47,628 bases of DNA, from positions 1 to 47,628 of IMG/VR virus record IMGVR_UViG_3300025009_000161; one strand, given 5' to 3'. Of the stretch, positions 10,228 to 47,628 are shown piece by piece. The notes below the pieces were generated by a model that was not told the DNA's origin, ran no database searches, and was given only the letters and a program-made list of their open reading frames with translations. The translations under genes were made by a program, and so were the position numbers. The stretch's first letter is position 1. The number at the start of each line of letters is the position of its first letter. This DNA is from a virus.

Positions 10228-10442
10228 AACCACCTAAACCAGAGGTTATTGAATGTGTTCCTGTTTTTTATGAGGATGGAACAATAGTTTATGAGAGTGT
10301 TCCTCCTGAGACTATTGTAATGAAGACATCTCTTAATACTAGTAAAGAGTATAGAAGGATGCCACTGACAGCTACGGCAGCTGGATTAAGAGAGCAGTAT
10401 ATGTATGATTATCCTATTCCAAATTGGAAACCACGTAAATGA
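10224..10442 (+). CDS. Hypothetical protein, 72 aa
   Basis: The ATG at 10224 lies in an ATGA overlap with the exported protein's stop and is preferred to an upstream in-frame start inside that gene. Proline-rich and basic at both ends, no recognised domain. Its stop overlaps the DNA polymerase start (ATGA at 10439), so it is translationally coupled to the polymerase. Confidence 0.6.
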   Translation: MKPPKPEVIECVPVFYEDGTIVYESVPPETIVMKTSLNTSKEYRRMPLTATAAGLREQYMYDYPIPNWKPRK

Positions 10443-12877
10443 AATTAATTAATGGAAAAGGTTCTCCCGGACCCCTAATGATTATTGGAGATTATCCTAC
10501 TGCCAATGAATATACTGGAAGAGAATCTTTTTCAGGTTCAACAGGTAATCTCCTTACTAATTTGTTTCAGCCGTATTCTCAGGTTAGTACCAAGAATATC
10601 TATAAGACACATTACTTCAAAGTACCCATCCCTGGATATTCTTCCCCAATTAAGAAACTTCAAAAAGAAGCAGTAGAGCGAGTTAATGCTCTGGATAAGT
10701 GGGACTGGTATATAAAAGAAGAAATTGACAATGTTGAACCTAATGTAATCATTTCCTGTGGTGAACTTGCCCTTCAATATTTGACTGAGGAAAAATCAAT
10801 CGGGAAATGGAGAGGCTCCTTATTACATTTGCACCCAAGATTTGGTAGGACTAATATAAAGGTCGTACCAATACATTCTCCTAGAGAAATCTGGGAACAA
10901 AATGAGGCTCCTTTCGTATATACACAGTGGGATATTGGACGGGCAGTTAAGTACAGAGATCTTAAAATCCGGTTCAAGATTCCCGAAACTCTATGGATTG
11001 CTAAGAGTTATATAGAATTACTTAATTGGTGGGAGCGTGGACAAAGGGGGGAATTCTTAACCCTGGATATTGAAACTCACCATGGATTTATTACCTGTAT
11101 TTCTTTCTCTCATAATGGTACCGAAGCTTTAAGTATTCCACTCTTAGTTGGAAGTAAATTGTCAGATTGGGAACGGGGAAAGTTATACCAGCTAATCAAT
11201 ACCATTCTACGATCCAATGTCCCCAAGGTAAATCAGAACATTAAGTATGATTGGACCGTGTTGCAGGATTATGGGTTTGATATCCATAATATTATTGGCG
11301 ACACTATGTTAATGGCTCATACTATATATCCTGAATATCCTAAGGGGCTAGACTTTCTGACCTCAGTGTATACAGACGTGCCCTATTATAAAGACGAAGG
11401 GCGCAAGTACGACCCTAAGATACACTCCCCAGACCGCCTATTGCTCTACAACGCCATGGATTCACTCGTCACATGGCAGGTATGGAAGGCCCAACTAGAA
11501 GACGCTGAGGCTCTAAAAGTTAAATCTTTCTATTTTAAGTACGTACATCCTACGTTCTTTACATACAAGAAAATGGATGATGTAGGAGTTAGAGTAGATG
11601 ATTCACAACGTAAGAAACTAATAGTTAAATATCAACCTAAGCTGGATGAAATTGTACAAACAATCTCGCTAATTGCAGAAGAACACATTAATATTCTATC
11701 CCCGGCTCAGGTTGGCCGATTTATTTATGATGTTTTAAAATGTCCCAAGCAAACACATACAACCGATGCAGGTAAGATAACTTATTCAACGGATGAGGAT
11801 AGTATTGAGGAGTTATATGTCAATAGAGTTACCAATGAATCTATCAGAAAACTTCTTAAGGAACTTATTGTCGGACGGAAAATCGCAAAAATTATACAAT
11901 TTCTTGAGAGTCCCATATCCCCAGATGGAAGAATGCGAACAAGTTACAAACTTCATGGAACTAAAACCGGGAGAACTAGTGCCGGAAAAAGTATTGAACC
12001 ATATTTCTACATTGACGGATCCAAAATCAAAGAAAAAGACTGTGGTGGGAGTTTTCAAACAATACCAAAACATGGTTATGAATTTGGTTCGGAGAGAATT
12101 GGTGGTGAGTTACGGACAATTTTCACTCCATCTCCAGGATATTGTCTTATTGAAGGAGATCAAGGTCAAGCGGAAGATAGAGTGGTATGTATTCTCGCAG
12201 AAGACTGGGAAGGTCTTTCTATTCTTAATAAGACGGACTTTAAACACAATCACTTCGGACTTAAGGATGATAGACATACCCTAACAGCAGTTCTAATTAC
12301 TTCTAAAACCTTTGAGAATATAACTAAAGATGATAGACAAAATCTTGGTAAAAAGCCCAGACACGCTGGTAATTATAACATGGGGCCTGGAATGCTGGCA
12401 TTATTCACTCATATGTCACCTGGAGAGTGCAAAAGAATACTTGAAAAGTTCCACTCTACCAATCCTAAAATACGAGGAATATTCCACGCAGAAATTAAGC
12501 ACATTATTGACAAAAGACGATTCCTTGTATCCCCTCATGGTAGAAGAAGGGATTTTTTTGGCAGGATATCTGAAGACACTTATAAGCAAGCTTTCTCAAC
12601 GATACCCCAAGCTACTGTTAGTGACCACAACAAATTTACGATCTTATCAAAAATGGCAGGACAGTATAAATACCCAGATTCAATTCCCTTGGCAGAGTCT
12701 CATGATTCGTTAACATTTGAGGTAAAGTTGGAGCTTAAAGACCAATTCATTGAGGACTTCAACGCCGCAATTAGAACGCCGATTAACTTTATGGGCTGTT
12801 CATTATCACGGGATTATGATCTTGTAATTCCTGGTGAGATTGGCTGGACTACAGAAAACTGGGGAGAATTGAAATGA
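10439..12877 (+). CDS. Family A DNA polymerase with N-terminal UDG-like domain, 812 aa
   Basis: The replicative polymerase. Residues about 1-190 resemble family 4 uracil-DNA glycosylases (GDYPTANE, then FSGSTGNLL, and a late HSPREIW), a fusion known from phage SPO1-type polymerases. The 3'-5' exonuclease follows: Exo I LDIET near 212, Exo II NIKYD, Exo III YNAMD near 337. Polymerase motifs: TGRTSAG, motif A GDQGQAEDR near 572, motif B RQNLGKKPRHAGNYNMG near 635, motif C SHDSL near 754. Motif C has serine where family A usually has glutamate (HDE). Both catalytic aspartates are present, so it is probably active. A GC-rich patch covers Exo III. Confidence 0.9.
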   Translation: MKLINGKGSPGPLMIIGDYPTANEYTGRESFSGSTGNLLTNLFQPYSQVSTKNIYKTHYFKVPIPGYSSPIKKLQKEAVERVNALDKWDWYIKEEIDNVEPNVIISCGELALQYLTEEKSIGKWRGSLLHLHPRFGRTNIKVVPIHSPREIWEQNEAPFVYTQWDIGRAVKYRDLKIRFKIPETLWIAKSYIELLNWWERGQRGEFLTLDIETHHGFITCISFSHNGTEALSIPLLVGSKLSDWERGKLYQLINTILRSNVPKVNQNIKYDWTVLQDYGFDIHNIIGDTMLMAHTIYPEYPKGLDFLTSVYTDVPYYKDEGRKYDPKIHSPDRLLLYNAMDSLVTWQVWKAQLEDAEALKVKSFYFKYVHPTFFTYKKMDDVGVRVDDSQRKKLIVKYQPKLDEIVQTISLIAEEHINILSPAQVGRFIYDVLKCPKQTHTTDAGKITYSTDEDSIEELYVNRVTNESIRKLLKELIVGRKIAKIIQFLESPISPDGRMRTSYKLHGTKTGRTSAGKSIEPYFYIDGSKIKEKDCGGSFQTIPKHGYEFGSERIGGELRTIFTPSPGYCLIEGDQGQAEDRVVCILAEDWEGLSILNKTDFKHNHFGLKDDRHTLTAVLITSKTFENITKDDRQNLGKKPRHAGNYNMGPGMLALFTHMSPGECKRILEKFHSTNPKIRGIFHAEIKHIIDKRRFLVSPHGRRRDFFGRISEDTYKQAFSTIPQATVSDHNKFTILSKMAGQYKYPDSIPLAESHDSLTFEVKLELKDQFIEDFNAAIRTPINFMGCSLSRDYDLVIPGEIGWTTENWGELK

Positions 12878-32313: not shown

Positions 32314-33372
32314 TTAAGTAAGCGATCGGGCAATTTTCCCGATAACGCCTTGTTTACGCCTATTACTCATAACCACAGAACCCATCCACAGAATATGCTT
32401 GTATTTAGCATCCTGATTAATGGGCCGTTGGAAATCTGTGGATACAAAGTTTGTTTCAGATTCATAAATGCATTTGAAGAATTTGGTATTCAGAAAATAG
32501 GCAGTTCCACCAGTAGTAGTAGTGGTATCAGCAGTTCCCGCAAAAACATTGGGAACCCACTCATCCCAGACAACTAAACTATTCCAGAATTTAAGATTCG
32601 GGAAGGGGAAGTTACCATCAGACGATGAATTATTCTGATAGTATTCGCGGTAAGCCGCATGAAGTAATTCCCACGTTGTCATATCTGTGAGAATCAAGTC
32701 AGGAGCACCACCAGGACCTTTAGAACAATTGTTGTACATGGTCAAAAATTCGGCCATAAGTTCAACATATGTAGTAGCAGCAGACACCTTAGTATTATTC
32801 CTCCACCATGACTGGGTATTTTGATTAATCCCACCAAGTGTTAAGGAAGCAGTAGGGTCATACTGAACTAAGTCAGGTAATGGAGTAACAAAACTAGATC
32901 CATTAACCGGGGAAGTATATGGACTAATGATGCTAGATCCACCACTAACAAGAGAACCTTGAAGGAAAGCTTTTCCCCAAAATTCCTTGAATCCTAACTC
33001 CGCTTGCATAATCTTAGCAGTAACTAAGTTTACAATACGGTGTTTGTTCTGCTTGCGTTCTTTTTCTGAAATAGAAATTGGCGCAGCTGCTTGTGCCCAT
33101 TGCCAAGTAGACTGCGTAATTCCTTCAGTAGGAGTTAACGGAAGCTCATCATATCCCTCATAGGTATCTGCGGTACCCAGAGCATATAAAAGATCTTCCG
33201 CGATATACAAACCACCATCTTGACTTTCCCAGGGAATTTTGTGAAAAAAGGCATTGGACCTAGAGATATTGTCCTGTAAAGTTTTCCGGTAATTTGCAAG
33301 TGAAGTCGAGACTAATGCGTCATAATTAAGAGTATTCGCATTAGGCTGATTCGCTGCACCGAAAGTAGCCAT
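32314..33372 (-). CDS. Major capsid protein, 352 aa
   Basis: Placed after portal and scaffold-like genes. The N-terminal arm (residues 1-60, helical, LVSTSLANYRKTLQDN), a spine-helix region around 105-125 (EKERKQNKHRIVNLVTAKIMQAELGFKE) and a TTWELLHAAYREYYQ P-domain-type segment suit an HK97-fold capsid protein. Size is typical. The ending contains HILWMGSVVMSNRRKQGVIG, as seen in many capsid proteins where strands close the A domain. A maturation protease gene is not obvious. Confidence 0.75.
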   Translation of the reverse strand: MATFGAANQPNANTLNYDALVSTSLANYRKTLQDNISRSNAFFHKIPWESQDGGLYIAEDLLYALGTADTYEGYDELPLTPTEGITQSTWQWAQAAAPISISEKERKQNKHRIVNLVTAKIMQAELGFKEFWGKAFLQGSLVSGGSSIISPYTSPVNGSSFVTPLPDLVQYDPTASLTLGGINQNTQSWWRNNTKVSAATTYVELMAEFLTMYNNCSKGPGGAPDLILTDMTTWELLHAAYREYYQNNSSSDGNFPFPNLKFWNSLVVWDEWVPNVFAGTADTTTTTGGTAYFLNTKFFKCIYESETNFVSTDFQRPINQDAKYKHILWMGSVVMSNRRKQGVIGKIARSLT

Positions 33373-33381
33373 TATTTTTCC

Positions 33382-34146
33382 TTAATCTAATAACTCGCCA
33401 CGAACAGCAGCTTCTACTGCTTCTCTGGCTGAGATTTTTCCAGATCCACGCTTTACCCGATCATCATTGGTTTCAGTACCAGATATTTCGGCTCTACGTG
33501 AAAGATTTTCTTTTTGCCGCTGACGTTTATCAATCTCTGATTTAGTTTCAGCAGCTTCTAACCTGTGATACTTTAAGAGTTTCTTCAGGTAATTAGGTAA
33601 TGGATCTTTGCCGGAAGGAGGCATTTCTTCAACCAGCTTACTTAATGCGCCAGCTTCCTCATCGGAAACTTTTTCTTCTACAAGAAAACTATTATATTGA
33701 GTAATTAACTGTTCCTGGGTACGTTGTGCTTCCCGCCCAAGCATTTCAGAACGTACTTTATCAGTGGATTCACGCAGAATTTCTTCTAGTGCGTCCCCTA
33801 ATTTATCGGAGATAAAGGAAAAATCATCCCCCATTTTTTCCTTGAGAACAGCTTTAATCGTTCTCTCAGCAGCCTTTTCTTCTTTCTTGGTTTCAGGGGG
33901 TTCGATCCCAAGTTGGTTCATTAAAGACTTTACAACATTACCAGCAGTTTGGGGGTTCTCTAAAGCGTCCAATAGTGCTAAAGCTTGAATAGTCCGGGGA
34001 TCGGGTTTAGAGATTTCTGCTTCTTTGGCCGCTGATTTTGAAGTTTCAACTTCATCTGATTGATTCTCTTCTGTTGTAGCCGAAGCTTCAGTCGCCATTG
34101 ACTGTGCAGCAGTATTAACCGCATTTTCAAGAGCATCTTGTGACAT
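33382..34146 (-). CDS. Putative scaffolding protein, 254 aa
   Basis: Highly charged, helical, Glu/Lys/Ala/Ser-rich protein directly upstream of the major capsid gene. An acidic disordered N-terminus (about 1-55), coiled-coil middle and a basic C-terminus (RRAEISG...VKRGSGKISAREAVEAAVRG), which fits scaffolding proteins whose basic helix-turn-helix end binds the coat protein. Begins in a TAATG overlap with the tiny gene upstream. Confidence 0.65.
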   Translation of the reverse strand: MSQDALENAVNTAAQSMATEASATTEENQSDEVETSKSAAKEAEISKPDPRTIQALALLDALENPQTAGNVVKSLMNQLGIEPPETKKEEKAAERTIKAVLKEKMGDDFSFISDKLGDALEEILRESTDKVRSEMLGREAQRTQEQLITQYNSFLVEEKVSDEEAGALSKLVEEMPPSGKDPLPNYLKKLLKYHRLEAAETKSEIDKRQRQKENLSRRAEISGTETNDDRVKRGSGKISAREAVEAAVRGELLD

Positions 34147-34241: not shown

Positions 34242-34604
34242 CTACTTTACCATTGGAACTACAACTGAAGCTCCAACGCTTAACTTTCTTATAGTTATAG
34301 ATTCAACTGTTTGTCCAGAAAGTGAGAGAGATGTGGTTGTTAAGTGAGACCAATTTTCAATTCCAATTGTAACAGGATGAGTAAAAACTGCGGTATGATT
34401 ACCTTGTGGAGTGACCACAGTTAGTTCACAATAAATTACAGTAGCAACTGGTCTACCATAAATTAAAATTTGTGTGGGAATCTTGGCTCCCGCAGTAGTA
34501 GCTACAGTACCACTATCAGTCAAAATAAAAGCAACATAGTCTGAGGCTGTAGCTTGCCCAAAGACTAGTGAAGTTAGAAAGAGAAACAGCGCAGTTAATT
34601 TCAT
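34242..34604 (-). CDS. Secreted protein with Sec signal peptide, 120 aa
   Basis: MKLTALFLFLTSLVFGQATASDY is a clear Sec-type signal peptide with a plausible cleavage after AxA near residue 20. The mature part is beta-rich (VIYCELTVVTPQGNHTAV...). No lipobox. A secreted protein between portal and capsid genes is unusual; it may act in the periplasm or envelope during late infection (spanin-like or superinfection-blocking), or ride on the virion. No family recognised. Confidence 0.6.
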   Translation of the reverse strand: MKLTALFLFLTSLVFGQATASDYVAFILTDSGTVATTAGAKIPTQILIYGRPVATVIYCELTVVTPQGNHTAVFTHPVTIGIENWSHLTTTSLSLSGQTVESITIRKLSVGASVVVPMVK

Positions 34605-34614
34605 TTGGATACCC

Positions 34615-34896
34615 CTAATGTAGATCTTCTACTTTCTTTTCATTTTTATACTTCTGATACCACTCTGCCTCGGCTCTAATATAGTCCATCATAGCCCCTT
34701 TTACACGAAAACTAGCAAAATGTTTAAATTTAGCTTCGTGAGTGTCGTCATACCTTAAAGATGCTCGATATAGTCCATATAGCCCCTCTGCGAACAAAAT
34801 AGCATAATCAATATTTGGAGGAGACTTTAAAAAAAAGATTCTAGCTAAGGTTTTTACAAGGGGAATATTTTCCTTAACAAGTTGTTCTGGATTTAT
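34615..34896 (-). CDS. Sigma-factor region-2 protein (FliA/SigB-like), about 93 aa, no ordinary start codon
   Basis: The frame reads as sigma70-family regions 1.2-2.4: NIPLVKTLARIFF, then IDYAILFAEGLYGLYRASLRYD, then FKHFASFRVKGAMMDYIR followed by AEAEWYQKYK. This matches the FliA/SigB pattern (PLVR..A, DL.QAG..GL..A..RYD, FxTYA..RIRGAMLD.LR..DW). Regions 3 and 4 are absent. The similarity extends upstream of the first TTG (34797), but no ATG, GTG or TTG lies there. Candidates are AUA at 34894-34896, overlapping the portal stop, or a -1 shift on the portal's GGGGG run (34904-34908). A stray region 2 could bind core RNA polymerase. Domain likely; expression mode uncertain. Confidence 0.65.
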   Translation of the reverse strand: MNPEQLVKENIPLVKTLARIFFLKSPPNIDYAILFAEGLYGLYRASLRYDDTHEAKFKHFASFRVKGAMMDYIRAEAEWYQKYKNEKKVEDLH

Positions 34897-36692
34897 TGTG
34901 GTACCCCCATAGTATTCATTTGATTTTCAATTTGGGCTTGATCTGGGGGCATCATTTGTTCAGCAGTCATTTGAGCCATATTATTAGGTTGTGGAGGTTG
35001 ACCCAAATTTTCTTGACCTTGAGCAACTTGACCCACCATCTGAAGAAGCGCAGCTTGTTGGAAAGCTTTAATAACCTTGTTATTCTTATAGTCTAACCTG
35101 AAAGCAGCTTCCCGAATAAGATCTGGGTTTGTCGCAAGTTGGGGATATTGATTCATAATAGCCAAGAATTCCAAGAACTTCTTTTTCTCGATATCGTTTG
35201 CAATCGGACTCAAAGATTCCACAGTGACATTAACCTTATAGTCTATATAACCCAAATCTTCTTTCTGGAGCATTTTCCATTGGTACTCTAGTTCAGGAAC
35301 ATCCTTAAAGAATCCCCCTAAATCAGAAGTAATTTTAGTCCAAATTGGAAGAGTTGTACGCTCGATTACTTGATAAAGAATCTCAAGTCCAATCCGGCAG
35401 ATCCATTTGGCTACAATCTTTCTTTCTTCATTCTCTCTAATCGTAGCTCTTTGATTAGATACATTAGTTTGGGTAGCCGTAACACGATCTGCTTCACCCC
35501 TTTGTTCAGCTGTAGTTCCGGCTGAAACATTGAAGTCATCTTTTGAAGTCTGTAATACTATTCCCAGGGTAGCATCAAGGGGAGGATTAGGAACAACTCC
35601 AATAGCATTATCTTGATTAGTCCAAATCGTAATACCATCACGACCATTCATTAATTTATCTACTTCATCATTATCTACATTTCCAGTCTTAATCTGGTAA
35701 GCTCTTTTAGCTCTACGACGGGCTGCCCGGACTTGTTCTCTAGTTTCATTAATCTCATCCTGAGGAGATTTCCAGTTATAACTAAGAGGAATAGGATACC
35801 AACCTTTTCTCCGCTTGAAAAACCGAATATCAAAAAGTGGAAGTCGATCAAAAGGACGTTCATAAAGGATTACAGAAGTATCATTGGTGATAATATAAAA
35901 CTGCTTCTTTCTGTTGTCCCAGATTTTCCAAACCTTAACAAGATCTCCCGAAGTTTCTAACTGATTCTCTTCATCATTGTATTCAGTCTTAAACTCATCC
36001 GTATGTGTTCCAGCATATTCAAGTTCTTTTACATTCTTGAATCCAAGTTTCTTCTGCTGTAAATCTTGAGTTCTATAAAATTCGTAGTAGCCACACCAAT
36101 CAGCCCTACGTAAATCTGAACAATCGTTTCCACCAACTCGAAAACGGTGAGCTGGAATACGTTTTACGAATATATGTTCCTGCTCAGGAATCTCCTCGGG
36201 TTCATCTGACTTTTCCTGCTTTAGAGGATCCAGAGGATCAATTGGCTTATTCGCATTGGGATTGATTGTCCAATTGGCTGAATAACCTACCTCTACAATA
36301 CCAAAATAAGGGAGTGCATCTACGATAGCTAACTCTAACTCTTCTCCATAATTGAGTTTGTCAGAAGTGACGAATGTGTTTAAAACATCAGATGCATTTT
36401 GGGCCCAATTATACGCTTCCTCTGGCATTGAATCGTAGGAAACTGGCATCGGTTCAATGTAATAGATTGGTTGTGTAAAAAGAAGCGAAGGTCTCTTTGT
36501 AGCAAATGTAGCAAAAAACAGATTCAAGACATAAGGTTCATAAGTTTCGTCTGCATCTGTCCACTGAAAACCCTCCATATACTTTTCAAGTGTCTTACAT
36601 TTGAATTTTCTTTCCCACTTCTCAAAATAGATTTGGGCAGCACTAATCTTATGCTTCCAAATATTAGATAATAGTTTTTCTTTGTCAGTCAT
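34893..36692 (-). CDS. Portal protein, 599 aa
   Basis: Follows the large terminase with a 4-base overlap. Size, a helical opening (KLLSNIWKHKISAAQIYFEKWERKFK), the central KSPQDEINETREQVRAARRRAKRAYQ helix with a later GTTAEQRGEADRVTATQTNV stretch, and a Gln/Met-rich C-terminal tail are typical of the P22/'head-tail connector' portals of short-tailed phages. It forms the dodecameric ring for DNA entry. The last codons carry the GGGGG run discussed with the sigma-like gene. Confidence 0.8.
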   Translation of the reverse strand: MTDKEKLLSNIWKHKISAAQIYFEKWERKFKCKTLEKYMEGFQWTDADETYEPYVLNLFFATFATKRPSLLFTQPIYYIEPMPVSYDSMPEEAYNWAQNASDVLNTFVTSDKLNYGEELELAIVDALPYFGIVEVGYSANWTINPNANKPIDPLDPLKQEKSDEPEEIPEQEHIFVKRIPAHRFRVGGNDCSDLRRADWCGYYEFYRTQDLQQKKLGFKNVKELEYAGTHTDEFKTEYNDEENQLETSGDLVKVWKIWDNRKKQFYIITNDTSVILYERPFDRLPLFDIRFFKRRKGWYPIPLSYNWKSPQDEINETREQVRAARRRAKRAYQIKTGNVDNDEVDKLMNGRDGITIWTNQDNAIGVVPNPPLDATLGIVLQTSKDDFNVSAGTTAEQRGEADRVTATQTNVSNQRATIRENEERKIVAKWICRIGLEILYQVIERTTLPIWTKITSDLGGFFKDVPELEYQWKMLQKEDLGYIDYKVNVTVESLSPIANDIEKKKFLEFLAIMNQYPQLATNPDLIREAAFRLDYKNNKVIKAFQQAALLQMVGQVAQGQENLGQPPQPNNMAQMTAEQMMPPDQAQIENQMNTMGVPQ

Positions 36693-38257
36693 CTTGTGGG
36701 CATTCCATATGCGTCAAAATATTCTGAAGCTTTCAATGCTTTAATTCGTCTACGAACTGCTTCGAAAGAGTTTGGTTTGTACTTTTTGGGAGCTTCAGTA
36801 ATAGGTCCCAAATGTGATGCACAATAATATCTTGCAGAATCGTATGCATGATCTGTTACTTTTTTATCCCGTTCGTCAGAATAAACGGGCTTACCATTAA
36901 TGGTATCTAAAAGCATCTTCTTTTGCGAAGAAATTTCTTTAATAACATTAACACATCCTTGGGGATAATAATTGCTACGTTTAATAAAGAAAAGTCTTGG
37001 TGAACCTTTTTCACCTGTAACTGGATGAACGAGATCGGGATCAACTCGAAGTAACTCATTTATGCGATTTCGCGTTGCAAATTCATTATTATCTGCAGGA
37101 TTCCATAAAAGAGTGGGGGCTTCTAGACGCTGATCCCGATATTCGTCTGCCACAGTCCAAAATCCACCATATTTCTCCAGGTGCTTTTTGAAAATATCCG
37201 GATCTGCGACATTAGACGAGTAAATCTCAGATTCTGATAGTTTCGTTATATTGGCTCTATGGTACGATATGGTTTTATCTGGAACGTAGTACTCACGATA
37301 ATTGATATAATATTGTTTGAAAGCTGACCACCAAAGACAACAAGTTGGTGCAGTAGCTCCATGATCCAAAGATCTACCTAAATTCCCCTTCTTGATAATC
37401 TCCTCTATAAATTTTTGGGATACTTTGAAAGGGGATTTAGAATCGGGATCTGTTTCTAAGATACTTTCAGGAGAAATGTCGTGAATTGCACCAGCCCCGC
37501 GAGTGAATTCCCCATAAACATATCTCCGAACCCACTCTTGATCGCGGGTCATCATAGTAGCCAAATTTTCAGGGGGAAGTGCTTTATTCTCGGAGGATGC
37601 AGATTGGAAATACGAATGAGAATTTTTATACTTCTCTTGATGCTCTGGAGAATCAGGATGAAACCGCTGCCAACTCCAATGGAAAATACCCTCATCAGGG
37701 GGATTAATGAGGATCATATGATATGCGGGAGCCATTGGCTTTCCAGTAAATGCATTCATCGGCCAATTTGGATTTACTTTTAACAAATCGGGGGGTATCT
37801 CTACATTATCCCATCTACCAACACGTGAGTCAAGTGTGAGATACACGGATTCTGGTATTTCTTCTGCCTGATCTATTAGTGCTGAATTAAGCTCCAGCGA
37901 ACGAAGGGCACTTTCATCGTATTGATCGAAGTGCATCCAATATACTCTGGATTTGTTGAAAAGATCACAGTACCCAAGTGAATCAACTCTGTGACCTCCG
38001 TATTCTTCAGAATAAAGTTCGGGAGGGCAAACTTTAAAGAAGGTTTGCATTGTTGTTCTTTTAAGTTCGACACTTGAATATCTCCCAATTGCAATACGGT
38101 AACCGGGAAACTTACACAACAGTGCTAAAGCTTTTTGACAAGCTGTATAAGTTTTCCCGGCACCATATCCCGAATTCCAACACTGATTTCGCTTAGAGTC
38201 ATTGAAGAACTTTTCAGCGGTAGGTGATGAAAATCGAAATTTTAGATCAATGTTCAT
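36689..38257 (-). CDS. terL: Large terminase subunit, 522 aa
   Basis: Packaging motor. Walker A GYGAGKT at residues 30-36, Walker B ALIDQAEEI at 126-134 ending in the catalytic acid pair, and a nuclease-domain start GRSLDHGATAPT with D298. The late nuclease acids cannot be fixed by eye. It starts in a TAATG overlap with the previous gene and overlaps the portal start by 4 bases. The terminase type would suggest whether packaging is headful; the permuted-looking contig ends agree with headful packaging. Confidence 0.9.
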   Translation of the reverse strand: MNIDLKFRFSSPTAEKFFNDSKRNQCWNSGYGAGKTYTACQKALALLCKFPGYRIAIGRYSSVELKRTTMQTFFKVCPPELYSEEYGGHRVDSLGYCDLFNKSRVYWMHFDQYDESALRSLELNSALIDQAEEIPESVYLTLDSRVGRWDNVEIPPDLLKVNPNWPMNAFTGKPMAPAYHMILINPPDEGIFHWSWQRFHPDSPEHQEKYKNSHSYFQSASSENKALPPENLATMMTRDQEWVRRYVYGEFTRGAGAIHDISPESILETDPDSKSPFKVSQKFIEEIIKKGNLGRSLDHGATAPTCCLWWSAFKQYYINYREYYVPDKTISYHRANITKLSESEIYSSNVADPDIFKKHLEKYGGFWTVADEYRDQRLEAPTLLWNPADNNEFATRNRINELLRVDPDLVHPVTGEKGSPRLFFIKRSNYYPQGCVNVIKEISSQKKMLLDTINGKPVYSDERDKKVTDHAYDSARYYCASHLGPITEAPKKYKPNSFEAVRRRIKALKASEYFDAYGMPTR

Positions 38258-45674: not shown

Positions 45675-46016
45675 ATGATGACGAGAATAGATGAAATGGG
45701 AATGGGTAAAACCCCAATGTCAATGACAGGTAAAACAGAAAGCCAATTGAAATATGCTCAACGGAATAACATCCGAGTAGTTTTCCTGGATAACGGAAAG
45801 CTAAAGTTTAAGGCTAGCAGATTTAATAGTGAAAGAAATCAAACTTTTGGAGCATGGTACGCTACAAGTTATCCTCTGAAATTTACAGTAAATTACTGGT
45901 TCAGTGACAGAAAGTGGTATTTCGGAGCTTACAATTTAGTATATGATAGTTATGTTACTATATTCTATTTGGAAGTTTCTCAAAAAGATGCACTGAAACT
46001 CATTAGGGGTAAGTAA
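45675..46016 (+). CDS. Small protein with SNF2-like Walker A sequence, 113 aa
   Basis: Starts MMTRIDEMGMGKTPMSMTGKTESQ. The DEMGMGKTPMS part is nearly the motif I of SNF2 helicases (DEMGLGKT) and of the helicase gene 0.8 kb downstream (SEMGLGKTPMA). The rest, a basic strand-rich body with WYATSYPLKFTVNYWF, is unrelated to a helicase and lacks motif II or III. GGAG lies upstream. It may be a recombination relic or a decoy; no function can be given. Confidence 0.6.
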   Translation: MMTRIDEMGMGKTPMSMTGKTESQLKYAQRNNIRVVFLDNGKLKFKASRFNSERNQTFGAWYATSYPLKFTVNYWFSDRKWYFGAYNLVYDSYVTIFYLEVSQKDALKLIRGK

Positions 46017-46315
46017 TGGCATTTCGAAGTAAAACTACTGGAAGATTCATCCAGACTCCTTGGGCCGGAATGAATGTCAATATCAGTGATTATTCACTCA
46101 CTGAACCAATGACAATTCCATTATCTTCTACAGCTATTCGTAAAGCCTACTTTAATCCATTGGAACGAAGGTTAGAAATTAGTTTCACAGATGGTACTGT
46201 TTATGAATACTATTCTGTAGAACTGGATACATTTCTGGGATTAATTAGAGCATCTTCAGTAGGAAAGTACTTTAATTACCAGATTCGTAACAACTACGAA
46301 TATTCAGGTGGATAG
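46016..46315 (+). CDS. KTSC-domain protein, 99 aa
   Basis: The C-terminal two thirds match the KTSC pattern: PLSSTAIRKAYFNPLERRLEISFTDG, then VYEYYSVELDTFLGLIRASSVGKYFNYQIRNNY. KTSC is a small domain found in phage and bacterial proteins, sometimes fused to lysyl-tRNA synthetase or nucleic-acid enzymes; its activity is unknown. TAATG overlap with the gene before. Confidence 0.75.
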   Translation: MAFRSKTTGRFIQTPWAGMNVNISDYSLTEPMTIPLSSTAIRKAYFNPLERRLEISFTDGTVYEYYSVELDTFLGLIRASSVGKYFNYQIRNNYEYSGG

Positions 46316-46325
46316 GATATAATAT

Positions 46326-46475
46326 ATGAAATATAAACTAAACTGGAACATCGGATTAGATCCTGTACCAATGCAACACTATTTTGCAACTTATGAAGAA
46401 GCAGAAAATTACCTTAAACTTTGGTGTCTTATAGAAAACACTCAAGTTTCATGGTGGATTGAGGTGATTAAATGA
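46326..46475 (+). CDS. Hypothetical protein, 49 aa
   Basis: Short gene (MKYKLNWNIGLDPVPMQHYF...) rich in aromatic residues, with an ATGA overlap into the helicase start at 46472. No strong ribosome-binding site. The coupling supports it; function unknown. Confidence 0.55.
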   Translation: MKYKLNWNIGLDPVPMQHYFATYEEAENYLKLWCLIENTQVSWWIEVIK

Positions 46476-47628
46476 CACGCCGATTAGTTGAGTATTGTGA
46501 TTCCTATCGTCGTAAGTTTTCCCTCAATTCAACAGGTGATACAATTGTTACCTCCACTCTGTGTAACAAGCCCCTCCAAGTTATTACAGAGTGTGATGAA
46601 TTGTTTGACGGAGAAGAAACGGGACGTATTTACCAGATTCTTCAATGTGGACATACACGTTTTGTTGATAAGAGTAAAGCCATTGTCAATTTAGAAAGAA
46701 ATCTCCTCTGGGATAACTTGTTACCTTTTCAAAAGGAATTCGTAGAATTTGCTGAAAAGGCAAACTTAATTTGTATGAACACTTCGGAAATGGGCCTTGG
46801 TAAAACTCCAATGGCTATTTCCACAGTACGTGAGAATGCGGCTGCATTTACAGACAACTTCACGAAGTATTCAATATGGATTGTTCCAGTCGGTGGTATT
46901 TACCAATGGTTAGAAGAAGGAATGTTTTGGTTAGGATTAGATAAACCCACCTCCTTAGAACACATTCAATTACTCCCCCAAGTCATTATCACAAACGGAC
47001 AATTACTCTCACCATTAAGTAAGATTATTATTGTCCCCTGGTCTAAGATTGGGGATAAAAGATTCCTTGAACAAGTAAAGAAACTTGGAGTTGGTTCCCT
47101 AGTTGTAGATGAATGCCATTTCTTTAAGGATGAAAACTCTCAGAGAACCAAAGCATTGATGGAATTAAGTAAGCTTGCTGGTCCTAAAGCCCCTAAATTA
47201 TTTCTCAGTGGAACACCTATTGAGAATCGTGTAATGGAGCTCAAAGTCGCATTGAATCAAATGGACCCCAATTTCTTTTATTCGTGGACTGTATTGGATC
47301 GAATGTGCTTGCACTATAACAATAAGGCACTTGGCATTAGTCCACATTGGAGAGATAGATTCTTTCAACAAGTGGGAAAGTATTGGTTTGCTAAAAAGAA
47401 AGCCGAAGTTAACATACCTCTCCCCTTAATTGAATACCATACAGCTTGGGATTCCCCATTCAATTTTGAGGTTAATAGAGAACTCATCAGTATGTACAAT
47501 ACTACATTAGATGAATTACAAGAAGTTCTCAGTGGTGCTAGAGTTGATTCCTCCTCCATTATTGGCCTAATGCAACAGTTGCGCCATCATACAGGTAGAA
47601 TGAAAGTAATGTCTGCTGCAACATGGGT
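46472..47628 (+). CDS. SNF2-family DNA helicase, N-terminal part (gene crosses the contig ends)
   Basis: The 5' part of the helicase, open to the last base of the contig; the rest is at 1-715 (564 aa in all after joining). Visible motifs: Q motif-like LPFQKEFVEF, Walker A SEMGLGKT (about residues 104-111), motif II VVDECHF with D and E near 212-213 (DECH rather than DEAH or DEGH), and motif III LFLSGTPIEN near 243-252. The N-terminal 100 residues carry scattered cysteines (C9, C31, C41, C59 with H61), possibly a metal site. Start in an ATGA overlap with the 49-aa gene. Double-strand DNA translocase; biological role unknown. Confidence 0.9.
   Translation, partial: MTRRLVEYCDSYRRKFSLNSTGDTIVTSTLCNKPLQVITECDELFDGEETGRIYQILQCGHTRFVDKSKAIVNLERNLLWDNLLPFQKEFVEFAEKANLICMNTSEMGLGKTPMAISTVRENAAAFTDNFTKYSIWIVPVGGIYQWLEEGMFWLGLDKPTSLEHIQLLPQVIITNGQLLSPLSKIIIVPWSKIGDKRFLEQVKKLGVGSLVVDECHFFKDENSQRTKALMELSKLAGPKAPKLFLSGTPIENRVMELKVALNQMDPNFFYSWTVLDRMCLHYNNKALGISPHWRDRFFQQVGKYWFAKKKAEVNIPLPLIEYHTAWDSPFNFEVNRELISMYNTTLDELQEVLSGARVDSSSIIGLMQQLRHHTGRMKVMSAATW
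47452..47628. repeat. Right copy of the 177-bp terminal overlap
   Basis: Equivalent to bases 1-177 with two differences (C47551 and G47578). It keeps the helicase frame open across the join, which shows the overlap is a continuation, not a chance repeat. Genome unit length after removing it: about 47,451 bp. Confidence 0.9.

Follow-up and report, generated by a model that had tools for sequence, protein, structure and literature searches.

A one-domain sigma gene of FliA/WhiG type lacking a standard start codon behind the portal gene of a phage

Gene order in the head operon

The window analysed here, 47,628 bases long, is the whole of one IMG/VR virus record. Its two ends (1-177 and 47452-47628) share 177 nt that differ at two sites, each time by a synonymous third-position transition. 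The record is therefore probably complete and stems from a population in which strains vary to some extent; IMG/VR lists it as linear. Elsewhere in the record, a DNA polymerase I-like protein (10439-12877) begins with a domain that resembles family-4 uracil-DNA glycosylases (TIGR00758, E=3.6e-9, residues 4-154), and a SNF2-like helicase with weak similarity to DISARM DrmD (E=3.9e-5) spans the record ends (46472-47626, continuing at 2-715).

Head genes lie on the minus strand in the order terminase large subunit (TerL), portal, sigma, 120-aa orphan, scaffold-like protein and major head protein. The features of the locus are:

36689-38257, minus strand: terminase large subunit (phrog_2, E=4.8e-15), its stop overlapping the portal ATG (ATGA)
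34893-36692, minus strand: portal protein gene, 599 aa, named by its position between TerL and scaffold/major head; stop TAA at 34895-34893
34927-34929, minus strand: in-frame stop TGA, upper limit of the sigma frame, read from the sequence
34904-34908, minus strand: GGGGG, SD-like, 7 nt before the AUA and also coding for Gly-Val in the MGVP tail of the portal (sequence and comparison with the nearest relative, L052)
34894-34896, minus strand: proposed AUA start codon, overlapping the portal stop by 4 nt (ATAA)
34795-34797, minus strand: first TTG within the sigma frame; starting there would remove region 2.1 and the first part of region 2.2
34615-34896, minus strand: sigma70 region-2-only protein of the FliA/WhiG subfamily, 93 aa (profiles, fold, coding score)
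34242-34604, minus strand: orphan protein of 120 aa whose N-terminus resembles a signal peptide, 10 nt past the sigma stop; it comes second in the variable slot
33382-34146, minus strand: scaffold-like acidic protein, 254 aa (position and composition only)
32314-33372, minus strand: major head protein (phrog_9953, E=7.3e-42)

Pfam and NCBIfam searches with the portal protein gave no match, and the 120-aa orphan has neither a family match nor a relative in the related loci compared. Scans for sigma70-like promoters and for terminators performed no better than on shuffled sequences.

Coding character of the sigma frame

The 93-aa product reads (I/M)NPEQLVKENIPLVKTLARIFF...KNEKKVEDLH. The first ~32-33 codons of the frame are free of ATG, GTG and TTG, with none before 34797. 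On all of these points, namely the coordinates, the frame, the missing standard starts, the AUA overlapping the portal stop and the GGGGG at 34908-34904, the first-pass annotation was accurate. The frame scores 0.32 bits/codon, the five others between -0.44 and -1.16, and its codon use is phage-like in both halves. The 32 codons preceding the first TTG, where sigma homology is also found, look protein coding because they score 0.45 bits/codon, which is inside the range of the large genes of this phage. Among 77 gene calls scanned genome-wide, the sigma frame is the only strong call in which over 12 coding codons precede the first ATG, GTG or TTG; a second such call (44159-43980) is weak and probably no gene. 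The frame ends directly after the last region-2 helix and 10 nt ahead of the next gene.

A complete region-2 domain

The product of the gene is a single, complete region-2 domain that derives from a sigma factor of the FliA/WhiG type. TIGR02479 (FliA_WhiG, NCBIfam) aligned residues 6-83 with model positions 1-77 of 224 (E=4.4e-16), at a score of 59.3 bits versus a curated cut-off of 189.6 bits, so that the protein does not belong to this family over its whole length. PF04542 (Sigma70_r2, Pfam) was covered nearly completely (E=3.3e-7; 30.4 bits, gathering cut-off 24 bits); the sigma70 region 2 profile search that had been proposed for this frame thus returned a match above its cut-off rather than none. 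Among PDB entries, residues 3 to 82 matched FliA (9wsf, E=5.9e-9). An AlphaFold2 model, for which the input alignment included 13 phage sigma regions, has four helices and a pLDDT of 90.7, and its best structural matches in the PDB by Foldseek are the region-2 domains of sigma28, WhiG, SigE and RpoS. Profiles, fold and coding score together bear out the earlier proposal of a sigma protein limited to region 2 and lacking a standard start. Homology ahead of the first TTG, which had likewise been claimed, is real, since the match starts at about residue 3 and hence some 30 residues ahead of that codon. Of the proposed span of regions 1.2-2.4, region 2 was recovered; region 1.2 was not demonstrable, as the match begins at region 2.1. 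Identity to any sigma factor found is only ~27-41%, and the 93-codon frame has stayed intact despite this deep divergence, which suggests selection on the protein.

No match to region 3 or 4 was present in any frame near the sigma gene and PF04545 (region 4) matched nowhere in the record, in agreement with the annotated end before regions 3 and 4. Besides this genome-wide search with the PF04545 model, Pfam scans of about 30 of the genome's proteins yielded no HTH. The point of truncation is the domain boundary. A region-4 partner supplied by the host is possible.

Bacterial and phage-borne FliA/WhiG (sigma28) factors resemble the protein in sequence and fold of region 2, including the block FKxFASFRVKGAMMDYIR. 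In contrast to these factors, which continue beyond region 2, the sigma protein stops there and is devoid of the region-2.2 Asp. This core-contact residue, which we take to correspond to D403 of sigma70, is Asp in all phage relatives aligned and is replaced by Ile33. The position of Q406 is Ala36, and that of E407 is Glu37, the sole one of these positions that is kept. The DNA-facing residues F57, F60, F63, R64, R74 and W79 are kept or conservatively changed, and G67 is also retained. A literature search for D403 and Q406 mutants returned nothing usable.

Related phages and the variable slot

About 70 distinct, distant portal relatives were found, one of them in a MAG contig, and most adjoin TerL-like genes. 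The nearest by portal and TerL is L052 (about 51% and 65% identity, respectively). The slot behind the portal contains different small genes in these relatives, among them basic peptides and KTSC-domain proteins, and similar-looking scaffold-like proteins come after it. A KTSC-domain protein is also encoded at 46016-46315 of the present record (PF13619, E=2.9e-17), and the same domain fills the portal slot in several relatives, for example L018. In L058, a small GerE/LuxR-type HTH protein (PF00196, E=3.7e-10) lies some 100 nt past the portal stop (5547).

None of the records of portal or TerL relatives carries a sigma gene behind the portal. These records contain one ECF-like sigma (L085, in the record of L011 at G010:C1:28526-28690), which combines region 4 (PF04545, E=8.5e-11) with a weak region 2 and is located away from the portal, and besides it one sub-threshold sigma match. 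Close relatives of the sigma protein were not found in viral contigs. An alignment-based scan recovered 15 loci, every one of them a longer sigma, and searching at the DNA level with a degenerate pattern for the FKHFASFRVKGAMMD block gave no match. Phage sigma relatives found by sequence measure 169-277 aa and all extend beyond region 2, most of them with clear regions 3 and 4. In an unrelated phage (L069, 2935-5254), a full-length FliA-like sigma gene stands immediately before a terminase-like gene. As no relative carries a sigma gene behind its portal, the gene is, as far as the collections show, a lineage-specific occupant of a variable slot.

A probable AUA start at the portal stop

The most likely translation start of the sigma gene is the AUA at 34896-34894, as judged from the 4-nt overlap, the GGGGG and the ATGA and GTGA overlaps in this genome and its relatives. 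Ten other genes of the phage begin with an ATG that overlaps the preceding stop by four bases (ATGA), and at the equivalent place the sigma frame has ATAA. GGGG or GGGGG also precedes two of the other ATGA genes (30968, 39442). The comparison with related phages, suggested at first pass, was informative for the overlap and not for the gene: a 4-nt overlap at the portal stop occurs in 19 of the 70 distinct portal relatives (ATGA in 14, GTGA in 5), and the sigma gene in none. L052 shares ATGGGGGTACC with this phage, followed by the ATGA start of an unrelated 43-aa gene. The portal tail MGVP or GVP recurs in relatives and is written with GGGAG or GGAG in others of them. The AUA start raised in the first-pass annotation is thus backed by overlap geometry, an SD-like GGGGG and comparison both within the genome and with related phages.

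Two kinds of precedent make such a start conceivable. Re-initiation at overlapping or adjacent stop and start codons is established in E. coli (PMC2268962), and the Staphylococcus aureus genes infC, ccpN and citZ start at AUA codons directed by an SD at reduced yield, ~10% of that of AUG and up to 30% for ccpN (PMC13009471). The S. aureus genes differ in having extended SDs and proof by ribosome profiling, whereas the features seen here in the sequence are a short GGGGG at 7 nt, the ATAA stop/start overlap and no alternative ATG, GTG or TTG start nearby. A CCCCC at about 34944-34951 can pair with the GGGGG region (34903-34909) ahead of the AUA and might keep it hidden until translation reaches the end of the portal; this fold is no better than in shuffled sequences (z -0.97), and the CCCCC is absent from L052.

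Comparison with one-domain sigma proteins

T4 gp55, which resembles sigma factors in domain 2 only, binds the clamp helices of beta' and recognises a -10-like element (PMC2988020, PMC7892883). This late sigma, which forms a 'split sigma' with gp33, resembles our protein in being a phage product with sigma domain 2 as its only similarity. It differs in its length (185 aa), an extra helix-loop-helix and a sliding-clamp motif, and in the acidic core contacts E70, D74 and E77, which gp55 has kept. Profile similarity between the two is not significant (hhalign probability 0.7%, 22 columns); in this weak alignment, Ile33 falls on gp55 E70, one of three residues whose substitution disrupts core binding. 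Equivalents of gp33 and gp45 were not identified in this phage, and the gp55-like late promoter TATAAATA, sought as a set before late genes, showed no enrichment, with two matches versus about six expected by chance.

Bacillus subtilis RsoA is described as the sigma2 half of a two-subunit sigma with SigO as its partner (PMC10028694). By that description it too is small and made up of sigma domain 2 alone (PMC10028694; sizes given in PMC10141391). RsoA differs in that SigO supplies region 4, whereas a search of the whole record with PF04545 found no region-4 protein in this phage.

Proposed role and alternative explanations

Ribosomes finishing the portal would re-initiate at the AUA, in ATAA instead of the usual ATGA of this phage, with the GGGGG helping, and the yield of sigma protein would follow portal synthesis and reach a modest fraction of what an AUG gene gives. 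During the phase of head assembly, the region-2 face may then dock on the beta' clamp helices of the host RNA polymerase. One option is that the protein would recognise a -10-like element without a -35 in the manner of gp55 and RsoA, perhaps with a partner. Alternatively, it could displace or compete with the host sigma. Holding core RNA polymerase or competing with the host sigma, both suggested at first pass, is plausible given the precedents of T4 gp55 and B. subtilis RsoA; that this would happen late in infection we infer only from the position inside the head operon. Taken together, the domain, an AUA start coupled to the portal and a role at the host RNA polymerase are given a probability of roughly one half, and confidence in function is held at this level mainly because the conserved region-2.2 Asp is Ile33. 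A more specific version, in which a sigma28-type region 2 acts on RNA polymerase without the core-contact Asp or region 4 and AUA re-initiation locks it at a low ratio to the portal as a timer or regulator linked to the assembly of heads, would be a long shot.

Two other explanations concern the start. The AUA could be a strain variant or a contig error, the protein being otherwise unchanged and starting at an ordinary ATG in most of the population. A single transition suffices for this and would also switch the portal stop between TGA and TAA, the usual overlap in the phage and its relatives is ATGA, the differences in the 177-nt end overlap point to strain-level variation in the source, and a near-identical genome for comparison was not found. 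Nevertheless, ATAA is what the record reads, TAA is common as portal stop among relatives as well, and bacteria do have AUA starts, so that we regard a variant or error as a serious possibility that falls well short of an even chance. The probabilities of the alternatives are not exclusive, as a variant or error at the start can be true together with a role at RNA polymerase. The first-pass annotation had also considered a portal-sigma fusion produced by a -1 slip on the GGGGG. From 34926 on, the -1 frame has no stop, and in the P site GGG could re-pair with GGG, but the portal-frame heptamer G GGG GTA leaves an A-site codon unable to re-pair and is no standard slippery site, no stimulatory structure was found (z -0.97), and the predicted downstream stem lies >20 nt past the slip site. 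Furthermore, GGGGG or GGGAG is accounted for by the recurrent MGVP tail together with an SD-like function, also in L052 where the next gene is unrelated, and none of the relatives has a fused sigma; the fusion is accordingly very improbable.

Other explanations concern the protein itself. Perhaps an expressed sigma-fold protein has taken on another job, as an anti-sigma decoy, as a binder of another protein or as a head or portal component made in proportion to the portal. The loss of the core-contact Asp, the location of the slot between portal and scaffold and the unrelated small genes that occupy it in relatives would fit such a change of function, which we nevertheless consider unlikely in view of the retained DNA-facing residues (F57, F60, F63, R64, R74, W79). 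Decay following acquisition is about as unlikely; here a piece of a sigma gene, inserted into the variable slot behind the portal, would no longer have its start or core-binding Asp and would give no useful protein. It would explain why the gene is lineage-specific, lacks a canonical start and the Asp, and is truncated compared with all phage relatives found (169-277 aa). Against this, the 93 codons have remained free of stops and frameshifts despite deep divergence, both halves are phage-like in codon use, the truncation coincides with a domain boundary, the fold is confidently predicted and the geometry of the 4-nt overlap is exact.

Implications

Gene callers restricted to ATG, GTG and TTG would miss the sigma gene or report only a 60-aa fragment of it. 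The gene is a real, unusual variant of the known one-domain sigma proteins, and its function we infer. Such proteins are few (gp55 and RsoA), and they show how little of a sigma factor redirects RNA polymerase. Lying in a phage head operon and with a non-canonical start tied to the portal gene, a one-domain sigma of FliA type would offer a minimal case open to testing.
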